A DNA stretch of 64,000 bases from Acidobacteriota bacterium (GCA_016201285.1 JACQDE010000086.1:1-64000); one strand, 5' to 3'. Counted from the first letter of the stretch, positions 51,518-59,754 are shown. Translations and numbers: made by a program. The notes: a model not told the origin generated them from the sequence alone.

Positions 51518-54445
51518 TCACTGCGGTGGTCTCTCGGACGTTGCTGCTCCCGGTGTCGTCCCCGAATCCTTTCGTCCCGCGTAAATCGTCCGGTCCTTCC
51601 GCTGCGCCAGCCGGATGCGGCGTGGTGTAATGACGACAATCAGCTCCGTCTCGCGCCTCAACCCCTGTTTCTTGCTGGCCACTCGCCCGGCTCCGGCGAT
51701 CGCCCCCACACCAGGCCATCCGCTTGTTGAGCGGTCAACGCCCTGTTGCAGGATTCCTGCCAGCACCGTCGGTTCGTTCTCCCGCAGCCGGACCGTTTGC
51801 TCCACCGTCCGGTTCGTGATCACCGGAATGCTGTTGAATCGCTCCGGCGCAAAGCTGCGGATTTCGAACTGCAATTGCAGCGTTACTTCGCGGTTCGCGT
51901 GAAGCCGCGGTGTCGCGCGCACTTTTACGCCCAGGTCCTCGAACTGCATCGCGGGGTACGGCGTCTGCGCCGCCTGCGACGTGGGCAGCACCGTCGTCGT
52001 GTTCAAAAAGACCGTCACGTTGTTCGCGTTGCGGTTCGCCGCCACCAGGTCCAGCCGCCCGTCGCCGTCGAAGTCCGCCGGCGCCACCGCGAACGGCGCT
52101 GCTGTCGCCGTAAAGTCCGAGGTCACAAACCTCCCGTTGCCCAGCCCGCTCAGTATCGAAATCGTGTTCGCACCCGAATTCGCCACTGCCAGGTCCAGCC
52201 GGCTGTCTCTGGTGAAGTCGCCCACCGCCAGCGCCGCCGGCTGCGCGCCGGTCGCAAAGTCGTTTTTCACCGCGAACGTCCCATCGCCGTTTCCCAGGAA
52301 CACGGAAACGCTGTTCGATCCTCGGTTCACCACGGCGATGTCCGCTTTGCCGCCGCCGTCGAAATCGCCGGTGACGATTCCCACTGGGTCCGTCCCGGTC
52401 GCCAGCGTCACGCCCGTGCTGAAAAACCCATTCCCTGTGCCCAGAAAGATGGAGACCGTGTCATCGCCCGAGTTCGTCACCGCCAGGTCTGGCCGCCCGT
52501 CGCCGTTGAAGTCGGCGACCGCAATCCCGCTCGGCCCCACACCGGTCGTCAGCGCCGTGTTGAAACTGAAATTGCCGTTCACCGTTCCCAGAAACACGTG
52601 CACGGTGTTGTCTCCGGAATTTGCCACCGCCAGGTCGGGCACACCGTCTCCGTTGAAGTCCGCGCTCACCAGCGCCACAGGAGTAGTTCCGGCAATCAGC
52701 GTTGTCGTTGGAGTGAAGCTCCCCGTGCCCGTCCCCAGTAGAATCTCCACCGTGTTGCTCGAAGAGCTCGCAACTGCGACTGCCAGGTCGAGCTTCCCGT
52801 CGCCATTGAAATCCCTGGCCAGTACCGCGCGCGGCTGGGAACCCACAGGAATGTCCGTCTTCGCCCCGAAATCGCCGCTTCCCGTATTCAGCAGGATGGA
52901 GACGGTGTTCGATGCCGAGTTCGCCGTCGCCAGGTCCGGCTTTCCATCGCCGTTAAAATCTCCCGTCGCAATCGAAGCCGGCCCCAGGTCCGTCGCGAAG
53001 TCCGTCTTCTTGATCCCCGGAATGATTTGCCCACCGGTGATGCCGGGTGTCAGCACCGCGAAGCTGATGGGGAAACGGTCCCCGACGAAAAACGTCGCCG
53101 GCTGCCCGTCTTCCGCGCGCAGTAACACGCGCCGCGCCCGCTGCACCAGGCTCAGCGTCTCCGCGAACTCAGCCGCCGCTCCGGGCAGCGTGGAAAGAAA
53201 AATCGTCTTGCCCCCGCCGAACGCGATCAGCGGCGGCAGCAGGGAAGCCGCCCCCACCTGCCCCGATGCCAGTCGGGCCGCCAGTTCCGCCTGACTCAGG
53301 TTGCCGAACCCGCCGGTTCCGAACACTCGTTGGATCACTCGCAGCAGCGCCTCGGTGGATTGCTGCGCCTCTCTGACGTCAGCCGGGCTCAGCGTGAAGA
53401 CGCGTCCGGAAGTCGGCGGCGTCACCCCCAGCGCCTGCGACCGGCTGCGGTCCACTTCCAGGAATTCCACCTCCAGCATCATCTCTCCGCGCGCTTGGTC
53501 CAGTTCCCGGATCAGTTCGATCGCCAGCGCCACCGCCTGCGGTTCGCCGCGCAGCACCAGTTGCCGTGTGTCCGTGTTGAGCAGGGGGTTGGCGATGCCG
53601 GCAATGTCCCGCGCCATCTGCCGGATTTCCGTCATCTCCTCTTGCGAGGTCGAGGCCGCCAGCTCCACCGTCCGCGTGATCCGTTCTGCATATTGCCGCC
53701 GCTTATCCGGCGTGTCCGGCAGCACCAGGAACGTCTTCTCGTCAATCACGCGGATAAATGTTCCTGTCTGCTGCTCCAGCAGGCTCACCGCCGTTTCGAA
53801 ATCCACATCCGCCACCCGGAATCGGAACTGCTTTCCGCCCACGTCCTGGTCAAACGCCATCGTCAGCCCGAACTGCTTCGCCACCTCCTCGTACGCCCCG
53901 AGCGTGTTCCCCCGGTAGTCGAACGTGTGTTTCGCCGGCCGGGGCTTGATCTGGATCACTCCCGCATCGTATTCCGACCGCCGGCCCATTTCCCGCGAGC
54001 TTTGCGCCTCCATCTGTGACAGCCGTTCCAGCGCCACCCGGTATCCTGGATCCAGCGCCAGAGCCATGCGGAGTTCGCTTCGCGCCTCTTCCAATTGCCC
54101 CTGCACCGCCTCGAGTTCAGCCCGGTCCATGTGCTGCTGCACTAGGCGGAATTTCGCCCGCTCGCGCCGCGCCACGTACTCCGCGTTACCGGGCGCAAGC
54201 TGTACCGCCTCGGAGTAGAGTGCAAACGCCGTGTTCCACAGTTCCGCCTGCTCCGCTTCCACGGCGCTCTTGTAAAGTGTCTGGGCCTGCTTTGCGCTGG
54301 TAGCAGCCGCAGCCGATTCTTGCACGCTGCTGGCGCGCGGCTCTTCCTGCTTCGCGCGACCGGACTGCCCCCCGGATGCGGGCGGAAAGACGACGGCACC
54401 AACCATTAGAACCGCCAGGACTCGCCTTGTCGTCTTGTGTCTCAC
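51518..54445 (-). CDS. secretin-family protein with an FG-GAP propeller inserted in the secretin domain
   Basis: 975 residues. Signal peptide (~1-26), TPR-like helices (~50-145), STN/N0-like domain (~173-240), N1-like domain (~255-335), start of the secretin C-domain (~430-460, RRVLLRAEDGQPATFFVGDRFPI). Then comes a seven-repeat FG-GAP block (~477-818) with DFNGDGKPD-type calcium loops at ~496, 545, 596, 645, 694, 743 and 791. The secretin domain resumes at ~828 (YPAMQFEDLGVKVRATPRLH) and ends with TVLAGILQQGV and ELIVVITPRRI. No other secretion or pilus gene is adjacent. Confidence 0.82.
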   Translation of the reverse strand: MRHKTTRRVLAVLMVGAVVFPPASGGQSGRAKQEEPRASSVQESAAAATSAKQAQTLYKSAVEAEQAELWNTAFALYSEAVQLAPGNAEYVARRERAKFRLVQQHMDRAELEAVQGQLEEARSELRMALALDPGYRVALERLSQMEAQSSREMGRRSEYDAGVIQIKPRPAKHTFDYRGNTLGAYEEVAKQFGLTMAFDQDVGGKQFRFRVADVDFETAVSLLEQQTGTFIRVIDEKTFLVLPDTPDKRRQYAERITRTVELAASTSQEEMTEIRQMARDIAGIANPLLNTDTRQLVLRGEPQAVALAIELIRELDQARGEMMLEVEFLEVDRSRSQALGVTPPTSGRVFTLSPADVREAQQSTEALLRVIQRVFGTGGFGNLSQAELAARLASGQVGAASLLPPLIAFGGGKTIFLSTLPGAAAEFAETLSLVQRARRVLLRAEDGQPATFFVGDRFPISFAVLTPGITGGQIIPGIKKTDFATDLGPASIATGDFNGDGKPDLATANSASNTVSILLNTGSGDFGAKTDIPVGSQPRAVLARDFNGDGKLDLAVAVASSSSNTVEILLGTGTGSFTPTTTLIAGTTPVALVSADFNGDGVPDLAVANSGDNTVHVFLGTVNGNFSFNTALTTGVGPSGIAVADFNGDGRPDLAVTNSGDDTVSIFLGTGNGFFSTGVTLATGTDPVGIVTGDFDGGGKADIAVVNRGSNSVSVFLGNGDGTFAVKNDFATGAQPAALAVGDFTRDSRLDLAVANSGANTISILSGLGNGRFVTSDFTATAAPFAVAPADFDGDGRLDLVAANRNANNVTVFLNTTTVLPTSQAAQTPYPAMQFEDLGVKVRATPRLHANREVTLQLQFEIRSFAPERFNSIPVITNRTVEQTVRLRENEPTVLAGILQQGVDRSTSGWPGVGAIAGAGRVASKKQGLRRETELIVVITPRRIRLAQRKDRTIYAGRKDSGTTPGAATSERPPQ

Positions 54446-54529: not shown

Positions 54530-54554
54530 CTAGTTGAAACTAAGTTTCAACTAG
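54530..54554. promoter_or_regulatory. palindromic operator over the transcription start
   Basis: An 11-bp arm, CTAGTTGAAAC (54530-54540), and its exact complement GTTTCAACTAG (54544-54554) are separated by TAA. Position and symmetry suit a dimeric repressor such as a DtxR/MntR-type regulator, and such a domain is encoded in the same operon (58243-59316). The ATG follows six bases later. Confidence 0.7.
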
Positions 54555-54560
54555 CGGACC

Positions 54561-55826
54561 ATGTTCTCGGCACTCATTATCGCCCTCCGGGAAGGCGTCG
54601 AAGCGGCTCTCGTGGTTGGCATTGTTCTCGTCTACCTCAACCGCACCGGCCGCGCCGCCCTCGCCCGCTTCGCCTGGACCGGCCTCGGCCTGGCCCTTGC
54701 CGCCAGCTTTGCCGGCGCCGCCCTGCTCGACCGCTGGAAGGTGAACCAGGAAGGCTTCGAAGGCCTCCTCATGTTCCTCGCCGCCTTCTTTGTGGCCACC
54801 ATGATTTACTGGATGAACCGCGTGGCTCGCAGCCTCAAGCACGAAATCGAGCAGCGCGTCGAATCCTATGCGCAGCAAACGGCCCTCGCCGCCGGCCTCG
54901 GCATCGCCACGTTTGTCTTCCTCATGGTGCTCCGCGAAGGCGTCGAGCTCGTCCTCATCCTCCGCGCCGTCGAGGTCTCCACCCAGGGCCTTGGTGTCTG
55001 GATTGGCGCCGCGCTCGGCCTTGCCCTGGCCGTCGCCGTCGGACTGTTTTTCTTCAAGGGCACGCTTCGGATTCCCCTCGCTCGTTTTTTTGCCGCCACC
55101 ACCGTCATTCTCTGGATCGTGGCCTTCCAACTTTTCCTCACCGGCATCCACGAGCTGAGCGAATCCATGTGGATTCCCTCCAGCGAGCGCGAGATGGCCC
55201 TCATCGGCCCCATTGTCCGCAATGACATTTTCTTCTTTGTTCTGATTCTCGGTGCCGCGGCTGTGGTTGTCCTCCGCGAATGGCTGGCTCTCCGCCACGC
55301 AAGCGCCGCCGCCCCGGAGGCAAACGCCGCCGACCGCCGCCGTCTCGAGTGGGAGCAGCGCAAGCAGCGCCGCTGGGCCATTGCCGCCGCTCTGGCCTGT
55401 GTCGCCGTTGTCGTTGTGCTCGCCGCGGATTTTATCTACGCCACCGCCGCCGCCGCGCCTGCCGATGCCAATGTCCTCGTCCCCGAGAGCGGTCAGCTTC
55501 GCATTCCGCTTGCCGACGTGAACGACTCCAATTTGCATTTCTACTCGGTGGAGATCGACCGCACCGCCGTTCGCTTCCTGGTCATTCGCAAACCCGGCAG
55601 CGGCTACGGCACTGCGCTCGACGCCTGTCTCATCTGCGGCCCGAAGGGCTATTTCCAGGACGGTTCCAACGTCATCTGCCGCAATTGTGCGGCCGCCATT
55701 TACGTTCCCTCCATCGGCGATGTTGGCGGCTGCAATCCCATTGGCTTTCCTTCGCGGGTCGAAGGCGACCGTCTCGTCATTGATCTCTCCGCGCTGGCGG
55801 AGGCTCTCGGCCAGCAGAAGAAGTAG
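54561..55826 (+). CDS. FTR1-family iron permease fused to an FtrD-like (DUF2318) Fe-S domain
   Basis: 421 residues. About seven transmembrane helices carry the two REGxE motifs of FTR1 permeases (REGVE at 10-14 and 125-129). After a further helix (~273-290) comes a periplasmic DUF2318-like domain with C356-x2-C359, C373-x2-C376 and C391, matching the Fe-S/FtrD family. In FtrABCD and P19-FTR1 systems these are separate proteins; here they are one. It likely imports iron using redox chemistry. A promoter with a palindromic operator precedes it and an ABC permease gene begins three bases after its stop. Confidence 0.88.
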   Translation: MFSALIIALREGVEAALVVGIVLVYLNRTGRAALARFAWTGLGLALAASFAGAALLDRWKVNQEGFEGLLMFLAAFFVATMIYWMNRVARSLKHEIEQRVESYAQQTALAAGLGIATFVFLMVLREGVELVLILRAVEVSTQGLGVWIGAALGLALAVAVGLFFFKGTLRIPLARFFAATTVILWIVAFQLFLTGIHELSESMWIPSSEREMALIGPIVRNDIFFFVLILGAAAVVVLREWLALRHASAAAPEANAADRRRLEWEQRKQRRWAIAAALACVAVVVVLAADFIYATAAAAPADANVLVPESGQLRIPLADVNDSNLHFYSVEIDRTAVRFLVIRKPGSGYGTALDACLICGPKGYFQDGSNVICRNCAAAIYVPSIGDVGGCNPIGFPSRVEGDRLVIDLSALAEALGQQKK

Positions 55827-55829
55827 CTC

Positions 55830-57116
55830 ATGTTCTTTCGAGTCGTTGGCGAATCCTTTGCGCGCAACCCGAGCCGCAAGCTGCTCATGGCCGCGGCGCT
55901 CGTTCTCGGCATGGCCGTGGCCACCGCCACGCTCACCGTCGTCCTCGACGTCGGCGACCGCCTCGCCCGTGAGTTTCGCAGCCTCGGCGCTAACCTGCTC
56001 GTCACTCCCCAATCAGACACGCTCCCTCTCGAAATCGGCGGTGTGGACTATCGCCCCGTGGACGAGGGCGCCTACCTCCCCGAAAGCGAGCTCGGCAAGC
56101 TCCGCACCATTTTCTGGCGTTTGAACATTGTCGGCTTCTCTCCATTCCTTGAAGTTCCCATTGAGTTTTCCGCCTCTGCTCGCGCGTCCGCCGTTTTCCG
56201 CGCCACGCTCATCGGCACCTGGTTCGAGCATGACGTGCCCATCCCGGACGGTGCCGCGTTCACCACCGGCGTCCGCATCACGCATCCTTGGTGGCGCGTG
56301 GACGGCCGCTGGCCGGCCGGCGCCGCCAGCGAATGTGTTGTGGGACTGACGCTCGCCCAGCGTCTCGGGGTGAAGGCGGGCGATTCGCTCACCCTTCGTG
56401 CTGGCAGCGCGGACGTGTCCCTGCAGGTCACCGGACTTCTCTCCACCGGCGGCCCGGAAGACGAAGCCGTTGTTGCTCCGCTTGCTGTTGCCCAGTCGCT
56501 TGCGGGACGTCCCGGCCAGTTCCGGCGCCTTCTGGTCAGCGCCCTCACCACTCCCGAGGACGCGTTCGCCCGCCGCGATCCCGCTTCGATGACGCCCGCC
56601 GACTACGATCGTTGGTATTGCACTCCTTATATCTCTGCGATTGCGCATCAGATCCGCGAAGTGCTCCCCGGCGTCGAGGCTCGCGCCATTCGTCGTGTTG
56701 CTGAAAGCGAAGGTCACATTCTCACGCGCGTCAGCGGACTGATGTGGCTCGTCACGCTGGCCGCGCTGTTGGCTGCCACTCTCGCCGTTGGCGCCGCTTC
56801 GGCCACCACGGTCCTCGAGCGCAGCTCCGAGGTCGGCCTGATGAAAGCCCTCGGCGCACCCGGCTGGACGATTTCGCTCTTCTTTCTGGCCGAGCAGATT
56901 CTGATTGCCTTTGTCGGTGGCATCGTCGGCTTTGGCTTCGGTGTTCTTCTGGCCCGCGTCTTGGGCGAAAGCGTTTTCGGCATCCCGCCCACGCTGCGCC
57001 TGATTCTTCTGCCGGTCGTTCTCGTGCTGGCGGCGCTTGTGGCTCTTCTGGGGAGTCTTCTCCCATTGCGCCGCGCCGCGCGGCTCCAGCCCGCGCCGAT
57101 TCTGAGGGGTGAGTGA
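55830..57116 (+). CDS. MacB/FtsX-type ABC permease 1
   Basis: 428 residues. An N-terminal helix (LLMAAALVLGMAVATATLTVVL) precedes a large periplasmic domain (~45-300) and three C-terminal helices, with the FtsX-type segment ERSSEVGLMKALGAPGWTISLFFLAE at the cytoplasmic face. This is the MacB topology, which usually does mechanical work across the membrane rather than transport through it. The second permease starts at its stop codon (TGATG). Confidence 0.85.
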   Translation: MFFRVVGESFARNPSRKLLMAAALVLGMAVATATLTVVLDVGDRLAREFRSLGANLLVTPQSDTLPLEIGGVDYRPVDEGAYLPESELGKLRTIFWRLNIVGFSPFLEVPIEFSASARASAVFRATLIGTWFEHDVPIPDGAAFTTGVRITHPWWRVDGRWPAGAASECVVGLTLAQRLGVKAGDSLTLRAGSADVSLQVTGLLSTGGPEDEAVVAPLAVAQSLAGRPGQFRRLLVSALTTPEDAFARRDPASMTPADYDRWYCTPYISAIAHQIREVLPGVEARAIRRVAESEGHILTRVSGLMWLVTLAALLAATLAVGAASATTVLERSSEVGLMKALGAPGWTISLFFLAEQILIAFVGGIVGFGFGVLLARVLGESVFGIPPTLRLILLPVVLVLAALVALLGSLLPLRRAARLQPAPILRGE

Positions 57117-58246
57117 TGTTCTGGCGCCTGCTCTGGCAGCTTCTTCGCGCCAGCCGCAGCCGCCTTGCTGTCGCGCTGGTGGCCGTCGCCGCCGGAGCCG
57201 CGGTCTGTTCCGCGCTGATCAATCTTCATCTCGACGCCGAGCGCAAGCTCACTCGCGAATTCCGCACCCTCGGTGCCAATGTCGTTGTCGCGCCCTCTCG
57301 CTCGGCCGGTTCCGGTGGCGAAGCGCCGCTTCTTGGGGCCGGTGTCCTGGAGAAAATCGCCGCTGCGCGCGCATCCGAAGTCGTTGCCGCCGCGCCGTAT
57401 CTCTACATCGTCGCGCGCGCCGCGAACGACCGCAGCCTCATTCTTGCCGGCACCTGGCTCGACGAAGTCCGCCGGATGTCCTCTTGGTGGAAGCTGCAGG
57501 GAGACTGGATCTCCTCCCGTGACGACCTCACCCGCTGCCTTGTTGGCCGCGCCGTGGCGAAACAGTTCAGCCTTGTTCCCGGCAGTGAGCTCCTCTTGCG
57601 TTATGCGGGGCGCTCCGTCCGGCTCGTCGTCGCTGGTGTGGTCAGCGCCGGCGGCACCGAAGACAATCAGGTTTTCGTGAATCTGCCGGTGGCCCAGCAA
57701 CTCGCGGGTCTCGAAAGCCGCTTCGGCGTCGTCCAGTTGAGCGTCACCGGTTCCGCCGCGCAGGTCGAGCAAGTGGCGCGCGGCCTCGCCGTCGCACTTC
57801 CCGGCCTCAACGTCCGCCCGATTCGCCAGATTGCCGAGGCGGAAGGCCAGTTGCTCTCCCGCATCCGCGTGCTGATTCTCGCTACTGTGGTGTTGATCCT
57901 CGCGCTCACCGCGCTCTGTGTCTTGGCCACGATGGCCGCTCTGGCCCTGGAGCGCCGCCGCGACGTCGGCCTCATGAAAGCCCTCGGCGGCTCGATGAAC
58001 CGCGTTGTTCGCTTGTTCCTCACCGAGGCTGCCATTCTTGGCGTTGCCGGCGGTACGCTTGGCTGGGTTGGCGGCGTGTTTTTGTCCGGATGGATCGGCC
58101 GCAGCGTGTTTGGCTCCGCGATTTCTCCGCGCCCCGAAGTTCTTCCCCTCACCGTGGCCCTGATGTTCGGTGTGGCTCTGGCCGGCGCGTTGCCATTGCG
58201 CTTGCTCGGTCAGGTGCGACCCGCAGTGATTCTGAGAGGCGAATGA
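57116..58246 (+). CDS. MacB/FtsX-type ABC permease 2
   Basis: 376 residues, same topology as its neighbour: N-terminal helix (LAVALVAVAAGAAVCSALI), periplasmic domain, three C-terminal helices and ERRRDVGLMKALGGSMNRVVRLFLTE. The two permeases share the N-terminal segment after the helix (TREFRTLGANVVVAP here, AREFRSLGANLLVTP in permease 1), so they are paralogues likely to form a heterodimer. The ATG at 57116 overlaps the upstream TGA; a GTG at 57113 is an alternative. Its stop overlaps the ATPase start (ATGA). Confidence 0.85.
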   Translation: MFWRLLWQLLRASRSRLAVALVAVAAGAAVCSALINLHLDAERKLTREFRTLGANVVVAPSRSAGSGGEAPLLGAGVLEKIAAARASEVVAAAPYLYIVARAANDRSLILAGTWLDEVRRMSSWWKLQGDWISSRDDLTRCLVGRAVAKQFSLVPGSELLLRYAGRSVRLVVAGVVSAGGTEDNQVFVNLPVAQQLAGLESRFGVVQLSVTGSAAQVEQVARGLAVALPGLNVRPIRQIAEAEGQLLSRIRVLILATVVLILALTALCVLATMAALALERRRDVGLMKALGGSMNRVVRLFLTEAAILGVAGGTLGWVGGVFLSGWIGRSVFGSAISPRPEVLPLTVALMFGVALAGALPLRLLGQVRPAVILRGE

Positions 58247-59316
58247 TGCCCCCGCTCGTCCAGGTTGAAAAGCTCACCAAGGAATACAGCGCCGTCCGCG
58301 CGCTCGATCAGGTCACTCTTTCTATCGACGCCGGCGAATGGATCGCCATCATGGGCCCCTCCGGCTCCGGCAAGACAACCCTCATCAATATTCTCGGCGG
58401 TCTGGACAAACCCAGCTCCGGCAGTGCCGTCGTGGATGGCACCGACGTCGCCACCCTCGACGAGCGTTCCCTCACCAGTTACCGCGCCGAAAAAATCGGC
58501 TTCGTCTTTCAGCAGTTTCATCTCGTGCCCTATCTCACTGCTCTCGAGAACGTCATGCTCGCTCAGTATTTCCACAGCATGACCGACGAATCCGGAGCCC
58601 GCGAGGCCCTGCGCCGCGTCGGCTTGGCCGATCGCGTCACGCATCTCCCTGCGCAATTGTCCGGAGGTGAGCAACAGCGCGTCGCCATCGCTCGCGCGCT
58701 CATCAACCACCCCCGGCTGATTCTCGCCGATGAGCCCACCGGCAACCTCGATGAAGCCAACGAGCAGCTCGTCGTCAACCTGCTTCGCGAGCTCCACGCC
58801 GAGGGCCACACGATTCTCGTCGTCACTCACGACCCCTCCATCGGCCGCCTCGCCGGCCGCCGCGTCGAGCTCGCCCACGGCCGTCTCGCGCAGATCACCG
58901 TCTTTTCCGCCGAAGACGAGGAGCGCTTCGACCACCTGCTCGAGCGCATCTGGATTGCCAACGAGGAGGGAAGTAAAGCCCTGATCGAGCCGTCGCACAC
59001 GCTTGGCCTGCTCGACCCTGCCGTCATGCTGCGGAAAATGGCGGAGCTGCAACTGGTGGAGTTAAGTGATTCTGCCGTGATTCTCACGGCCCGCGGTGAA
59101 GGCCGCGCCCGCGGCGTCATTCGCCGTCACCGCCTCGCTGAGCGGCTCTTCCGTGACACCTTTGCCATGGCCGATCCGGAAATGGATTCACAGGCCTGCC
59201 GCTTCGAGCACATCATCAGCCCGGAGCTCGACGAAAAAATCTGCACCTTTCTCGGCCACCCCAAGACCTGCCCCCACGGCAACCCCATTCCTCCCGGCCC
59301 CTGCTGCCCCGCGTAG
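58243..59316 (+). CDS. ABC ATPase fused to a DtxR-type metalloregulator
   Basis: 357 residues. Residues ~4-220 are a LolD/MacB-type ATPase: Walker A GPSGSGKTT (38-46), Q-loop FVFQQFHLVPY, signature LSGGEQQR, Walker B LILADEPTGNLD, H-loop THD. From ~225 the sequence matches the iron-dependent repressor family: winged helix (LLERIWIANEEG ... VMLRKMAELQLVELS), then RRHRLAERLF with H296 and E300, ACRFEH with C319, E322 and H323, and FLGHPKTCPHGNPIP. The metal ligands are those of DtxR-type proteins. I infer a metal-sensing ATPase that may repress its own operon. Confidence 0.87.
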   Translation: MMPPLVQVEKLTKEYSAVRALDQVTLSIDAGEWIAIMGPSGSGKTTLINILGGLDKPSSGSAVVDGTDVATLDERSLTSYRAEKIGFVFQQFHLVPYLTALENVMLAQYFHSMTDESGAREALRRVGLADRVTHLPAQLSGGEQQRVAIARALINHPRLILADEPTGNLDEANEQLVVNLLRELHAEGHTILVVTHDPSIGRLAGRRVELAHGRLAQITVFSAEDEERFDHLLERIWIANEEGSKALIEPSHTLGLLDPAVMLRKMAELQLVELSDSAVILTARGEGRARGVIRRHRLAERLFRDTFAMADPEMDSQACRFEHIISPELDEKICTFLGHPKTCPHGNPIPPGPCCPA

Positions 59317-59355
59317 CGACGTGGCCATCTTCGTTCTTCTGCTAACATATCGCTG

Positions 59356-59754
59356 GTGCCGCTGCCACTCGACACGCGCAAGAAACCCGCCTCCGTGAAG
59401 ATCCACGTCTCCACCGGCGGCGGCGTGGACATCACTTGGTCCGACGGCCACTCCAGCCACTATGATTTCATTTATCTGCGGGAAAAATGTCCCTGTGCCA
59501 GTTGCGACGACGTGCGCAGAAAAAAGGCGGCCGTCCCGTTCGAAAGCAGCCAGGCCCCTGCGCCTCTGCCCGGCTTGGGGCCGTCTCTTCCCATGTACAA
59601 GCCCGCGCCGAAAGCAAAATCCGCCCATGCGGTTGGCAACTACGCCATCCGCTTCGACTTCTCCGACGGCCACTCCACCGGCATCTACAGCTTCGACTAT
59701 CTCCGCGAAATCTGTCCCTGCGACGCCTGCGTCCGCGAATTCCGCTCCTTGTAG
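59356..59754 (+). CDS. DUF971-family protein with two CxCxxC motifs
   Basis: 132 residues from a GTG start. Two segments, YLREKCPCASCDD and YLREICPCDACVREF, are typical of DUF971 (the N-terminal domain of gamma-butyrobetaine hydroxylase-like proteins), found alone or beside Mrp/ApbC Fe-S carriers. The cysteines probably bind zinc or an Fe-S cluster. It lies 39 bases downstream of the ATPase-regulator, on the same strand, and probably belongs to the same operon, fitting an iron-related role. Confidence 0.8.
   Translation: MPLPLDTRKKPASVKIHVSTGGGVDITWSDGHSSHYDFIYLREKCPCASCDDVRRKKAAVPFESSQAPAPLPGLGPSLPMYKPAPKAKSAHAVGNYAIRFDFSDGHSTGIYSFDYLREICPCDACVREFRSL

Follow-up and report, generated by a model that had tools for sequence, protein, structure and literature searches.

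The described system closest to the locus reported here is the P19-FTR1 iron-uptake system of Campylobacter jejuni (Cj1658-1663; CJJ81176_1649-1656). Its genes for FTR1, an FtrD-like protein, two MacB-like permeases and an ATPase follow each other in that order and stand under an iron-responsive operator (PMC6083913). A second point of comparison is offered by the ATPases MetN and ModC, which carry C-terminal regulatory domains and show trans-inhibition. In these proteins the ligand-sensing domain is placed C-terminally on the ATPase and is expected to dimerise across both ATPases, providing a precedent for a sensor borne by an ATPase (PMC10710835). The third point of comparison is the family of metal-dependent repressors DtxR, IdeR and MntR.

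The stretch of DNA analysed here (the window) comprises 64,000 nucleotides from an Acidobacteriota bacterium (GCA_016201285.1, JACQDE010000086.1:1-64000). Between positions 54561 and 59754, five open reading frames lie on the same (+) strand, separated by short or overlapping gaps, and were read as one operon. The first gene (54561..55826, 421 aa) encodes an FTR1 iron permease (Pfam FTR1 3.7e-38, aa 1-202) and an FtrD-like (DUF2318) domain (5.2e-26, aa 320-414) as a single chain. It is followed by two MacB/FtsX-type permeases, permease A (55830..57116, 428 aa; Pfam FtsX 2.1e-15, MacB_PCD 4e-10) and permease B (57116..58246, or from a GTG at 57113; 376 aa; FtsX 6.5e-14, MacB_PCD 9.8e-14). The fourth gene (58246..59316, 356 aa) encodes an ABC ATPase of the LolD/MacB type (aa 1-216; ABC_tran 1.6e-35) that continues into a DtxR-derived domain (aa 217-356), and the fifth (59356..59754, GTG start) a GBBH-like_N protein, formerly DUF971, with two CPCxxC motifs (Pfam 7e-25). 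A P19-FTR1-type gene set, i.e. FTR1, FtrD-like, two MacB/FtsX permeases and a MacB/LolD ATPase, is present and its order is kept in relatives. Pfam matches and gene order thereby bear out a preliminary description of the locus as a five-gene iron-uptake operon related to P19-FTR1.

Several differences from the C. jejuni system are nevertheless evident: FTR1 and FtrD form one chain, the operon is without P19 and thioredoxins, the ATPase bears the DtxR-derived domain, and the GBBH-like_N gene ends the operon. The absence of P19, which the preliminary description had also remarked on, extends to the whole genome (93% complete), where zero matches to PF10634 were obtained. Because this genome lacks P19 and also FeoB, the operon is probably the organism's main inner-membrane iron importer.

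In the window's family, the GBBH-like_N gene closes the operon irrespective of whether the ATPase is fused or unfused, and nearly all family loci have it beside the ATPase; in most of the distant loci examined, it was not found adjoining the ATPase. Divergent from the iron operon, the minus strand encodes at 51518-54445 a 975-aa secretin-like protein with a TPR region (Secretin 1.7e-21) and about eight FG-GAP repeats inserted within the secretin part. In a sister species within the same genus (G052, locus L193), the same secretin-like gene adjoins a feoA-feoB pair under the same iron box as the one described below. The fusion ATPase was not detected at that locus and, conversely, the window's genome is the one without FeoB. 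It seems that one iron importer has been swapped for another beside the secretin-like gene.

The ATPase and its DtxR-derived extension are encoded by one open frame with zero internal stops, and ABC_tran and Fe_dep_repr_C (PF02742, 4e-25) are matched in the same chain, as expected from the earlier reading of an ATPase continuous with a DtxR-type metal-binding domain. The best Foldseek matches of the ATPase part were MacB ABC domains, E. coli MacB being the best solved structure (TM 0.89 of the target). A survey of 84,980 genomes then yielded 63 loci. At all but three, the ATPase and the DtxR-like domain lie in one frame; two exceptions end at a contig edge (L189, L190) and the third is a FeoB-linked form (L187). 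FTR1-FtrD and both permeases were found at every fusion locus long enough to show them, so that the co-occurrence of fusion and FTR1-FtrD genes holds wherever the locus is complete. The fusion is conserved across Acidobacteriota, two of the loci belong to Planctomycetota (L185, L188), and in the window's order (named relatives: Candidatus Acidiferrales / subgroup 2 Acidobacteriota) the operon occurs in most genomes. Its carriers form a large group of soil bacteria that are uncultured.

Dozens of independent genomes thus carry the fused gene, and two separate genes, a frameshift or an assembly artefact were ruled out for this reason. Given its breadth, including Planctomycetota, and its constant company of the FTR1 system at complete loci, the fusion is old and selectively maintained. 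Two single records deserve mention: in L191 the DtxR-like domain is divided between two reading frames, owing to either a frameshift or an error of sequencing in that genome, and L155 bears the title Betaproteobacteria, yet its match is to an Acidobacteriota genome belonging to the family of the window, the record being probably mislabelled or misbinned.

The DtxR-like domain differs from the repressors in its DNA-binding half. PF02742 is matched by 43 of 43 fusions and PF01325, the DtxR DNA-binding domain, by none of the 43, whereas both models, PF01325 at 1.4e-13, recognise the standalone DtxR encoded in the window's genome. The first helix of the domain (aa 222-240, 58909..58965, + strand) is retained in the AlphaFold model and contains D229-H230, with DH in 50 of 54 sequences. 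It is followed by a degenerate winged-helix region (aa 241-284, 58966..59097), recognised as such from column consensus and pLDDT, in which helix 2 is missing and the recognition helix is variable. Among the fusions, the column consensus is 0.86 in the metal domain, 0.50 in the helix 2-3 region (aa 243-271) and 0.56 in the recognition helix, the surroundings of which form the most variable part of these proteins. In 11 standalone DtxRs from the same order, a small set that is less diverged than the fusions, the recognition helix TPPAVTAALKRM reaches a consensus of 0.99.

The structure predictions point in the same direction. Helix 2 is absent from both AlphaFold models, that of the whole chain and that of the domain alone; residues 241-257 are mostly coil, and pLDDT falls below 50 at 249-255, the expected position of helix 2; this helix could also be present but badly predicted. 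The remainder of the domain overlays IdeR and DtxR at a TM of about 0.8, and the third DtxR domain is not found in the fusion. Regarding the C-terminal region, the preliminary description was consequently right about the metal-binding domain and not about a winged helix, which is degenerate and unrecognised by the DtxR DNA-binding model. In fusions from another family of the same class (L250, L252), the degenerate winged helix has a His/Pro-rich insert in its wing, e.g. HPPHPHDHKPFVNPCHD in L250.

Because the DNA-binding part has decayed, the sensor probably controls the pump and not the genes. Our main reading, to which we give a probability of roughly 0.6, is that a domain derived from DtxR/IdeR has kept its sensing and dimerisation half, has lost its DNA-reading half, and reads cytosolic Fe(II) to control the transporter directly.

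The retained half comprises the metal-binding/dimerisation domain and a conserved Cys tail (aa 281-356, 59086..59313, + strand), PF02742 covering residues 281-349. The residues listed for this stretch are H295, E299, C318, E321, H322, C333, C342, H344, C353 and C354. The five metal residues named in the preliminary description as H296, E300, C319, E322 and H323 are all among them, being H295, E299, C318, E321 and H322 if the second ATG is taken as start. The primary-site ligands H230, C318, E321 and H322 are near-invariant among fusions. In detail, H230 aligns with the metal ligand Met10 of DtxR (in hmmsearch, profile position 15 falls on DtxR residue 10) and is His in 50 of 54 aligned sequences, the replacements being E, D or N. 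The other three ligands correspond to DtxR C102, E105 and H106. Out of 43 sequences three depart from them, all distant members with a single ligand replaced (C318Q in L184, C318H in L186 and E321D in L183).

A Cys at the C102 position is typical of the iron type; the standalone DtxR has a Glu here (AERLEH versus ACKFEH in the fusion). The ancillary site is more labile: 32 sequences have HH at positions 295 and 314 and 10 have RD, with a tendency of the two positions to covary. The tail cysteines C333, C342, C353 and C354 are almost invariant and absent from classical DtxRs. Overall, the fusion thus shares with DtxR, IdeR and MntR the metal-binding/dimerisation domain, the iron-type primary ligands (C318 being DtxR C102) and the general fold, and departs from them in its eroded DNA-binding domain, the lack of a third domain and its attachment to an ABC ATPase.

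Further insight comes from close relatives without the domain. In twelve examined relatives (L054-L065), the operon is otherwise the same and the ATPase simply stops without the DtxR-like part. On a tree of the four concatenated transporter proteins, obtained by a quick search and containing some long branches, the fused and unfused states require six changes, and well-supported branches force at least five of them. The outgroup loci, from other Acidobacteriota and Planctomycetota, are fused without exception. This suggests, and does not prove, that the fused state is ancestral, since it was a search for the fusion that brought up the outgroup loci. That the sensor has moved into a gene of its own was ruled out, as the unfused genomes retain canonical DtxRs only and no member of the sensor subfamily was found there. 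As the domain is repeatedly absent from otherwise identical operons, it appears dispensable for the transporter, as would be the case for a regulatory add-on.

This last observation bears on a different role that could be imagined for the domain, namely that of an iron acceptor or metallochaperone which receives Fe(II) from the side of the permeases and passes it on via the DtxR site and the cysteines of the tail. Such a role would fit a tail that is conserved as strongly as the sensor site, and a domain found only on iron importers. However, transport presumably proceeds regardless in the intact operons that lack the domain, and to our knowledge sites of the DtxR kind serve for sensing in every relative that has been studied. 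We therefore regard iron transfer as unlikely.

Control of the transporter, the reading we prefer, receives its strongest hint from loci with a second, unrelated importer. A profile of the domain was searched against 396 Acidobacteriota genomes, and the scores split into a sensor subfamily at 102 bits or above and canonical DtxRs below 90. Thirty loci of the upper group, the window's own included, were read. An ATPase fusion adjoining a permease gene was present in 18, and in 10 a free DtxR-like-FeoA protein is encoded beside FeoB, directly downstream of it; in the remaining 2/30, an importer was not seen within the short stretch read. Examples of the free form are L187 from Calditrichota and L220, L227, L240 and others from Acidobacteriota, and PF01325 gave no match in the FeoB-linked proteins of L187 and L220. 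Like the ATPase fusion, the DtxR-like-FeoA protein has a degenerate winged helix, the FEHII motif and the TCPHGxPIPPGxCC tail; unlike it, the protein is free, carries a FeoA domain and adjoins FeoB rather than FTR1 and the ABC genes. The association with FeoB suggests that the module acts on importers. More broadly, we tentatively propose, at somewhat less than even odds, that a DtxR-derived sensor without DNA binding could serve to govern bacterial iron importers in general at the post-translational level, attached in one case to the FTR1-linked ABC ATPase and in the other to FeoA, the partner of FeoB.

The proximity of a degenerate winged-helix protein to FeoB, together with five conserved cysteines, also recalls FeoC, which acts on FeoB (PMC10710835). 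By analogy, the domain might be an iron-sulfur or redox sensor, made of the degenerate winged helix and the Cys cluster, that affects transporter activity or turnover and does not sense labile Fe(II). A pure iron-sulfur sensor would not need the primary DtxR ligands, though, and these are near-invariant, H230 included, which renders the proposal rather improbable.

Regarding transcription of the operon, a 25-bp near-perfect palindrome, CTAGTTGAAACTAAGTTTCAACTAG, is located at 54530..54554, 31 bp upstream of the FTR1 start. It is unique within the window, where dinucleotide shuffles yield none, and unique genome-wide with up to 3 mismatches allowed. Among relatives its consensus is AGTTGnnAn5TnnCAACT, and the motif typically stands 30-55 bp before FTR1. 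The box precedes FTR1 in 20/20 fused and also in 11/11 unfused loci, the latter scoring 31-36 bits with a matrix built from the fused loci alone, compared with 11 for the best of 930 shuffles. The exact motif occurs in 67 of 95 genomes and a backwards control in 5. Furthermore, the box precedes feoA (with feoB behind), TonB-dependent-receptor-like, bacterioferritin-like and other genes in relatives, the identities of all except FeoA being read from sequence and not from Pfam.

A private operator for the fusion was ruled out, as the box stands before feoA and before TonB-receptor, bacterioferritin-like and CbiX-like genes in relatives; for the same reason, the palindrome is regarded as a conserved, general iron box. 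Its spacing is Fur-like, 7-1-7 (TGnAAnT-n-AnTTnCA), and the same genome encodes two Fur-family proteins and a canonical DtxR whose DNA-binding domain is intact. Most likely a separate regulator, a Fur-family protein or the standalone DtxR, binds the box. In three loci (L199, L198, L200) the iron boxes are paired, 39-56 bp apart, before TonB-receptor-like genes and the gene of a secreted protein, a homologue of which has a single box upstream in L194. In L196 and L201 boxes are found before a CbiX-like 'HGG' protein, and in L196 before a divergent bacterioferritin-like gene too.

Although the genome's single operator site does sit at the fusion-encoding operon and the overall fold is DtxR-like (TM about 0.8 to IdeR), the idea of the preliminary description that the fusion represses this operon, for which the metal-bound protein would have to leave or span the membrane complex and bind the palindrome via its diverged winged helix, is highly improbable in view of the 0/43 matches to the DNA-binding domain, the variable recognition helix, helix 2 absent from the models, the missing third domain, the operator persisting in loci without the domain, and the box at other iron genes.

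The alternative contained in the same description, allosteric gating of the ATPase without DNA binding, is better supported by the missing PF01325 matches and the operator in unfused loci, and corresponds to our main reading. In mechanistic terms, the two ATPase copies of each transporter would bring two sensor domains together, and metal bound at H230/C318/E321/H322 would lock a DtxR-type dimer, altering how far the ATPases close. With plentiful iron the ATPases would stop cycling, trans-inhibition being the most plausible sign of the effect, and transcription would be under separate control, exerted at the upstream iron box by a regulator of Fur or DtxR type whose gene lies elsewhere. The arrangement would resemble that of MetN and ModC, from which it differs in the unrelated regulatory fold, in a metal replacing methionine or molybdate as ligand, and in permeases of MacB/FtsX type in place of importer-type ones. 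It counts against this mechanism that MacB-type ATPases usually power mechanical work or export.

The open-access papers searched yielded neither an account of an ATPase-DtxR fusion nor one of a DtxR-like-FeoA protein beside FeoB, and novelty is claimed provisionally. Little is understood of how feedback reaches iron importers as proteins; most known cases act on transcription (Fur, DtxR) or through turnover of a protein (FeoC). At this locus, the fold of a thoroughly studied repressor seems to have been turned into a regulator of a transporter. As close relatives with and without the domain exist, its function is testable by comparing paired operons. As a caution, fusion ATPases and DtxR-like-FeoA proteins beside FeoB should not be annotated as transcriptional repressors. 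Altogether, the fusion offers a way into the puzzling ABC part of P19-FTR1 systems, which are widespread, and, if the broader proposal is true, one sensor fold would gate two unrelated iron pumps.
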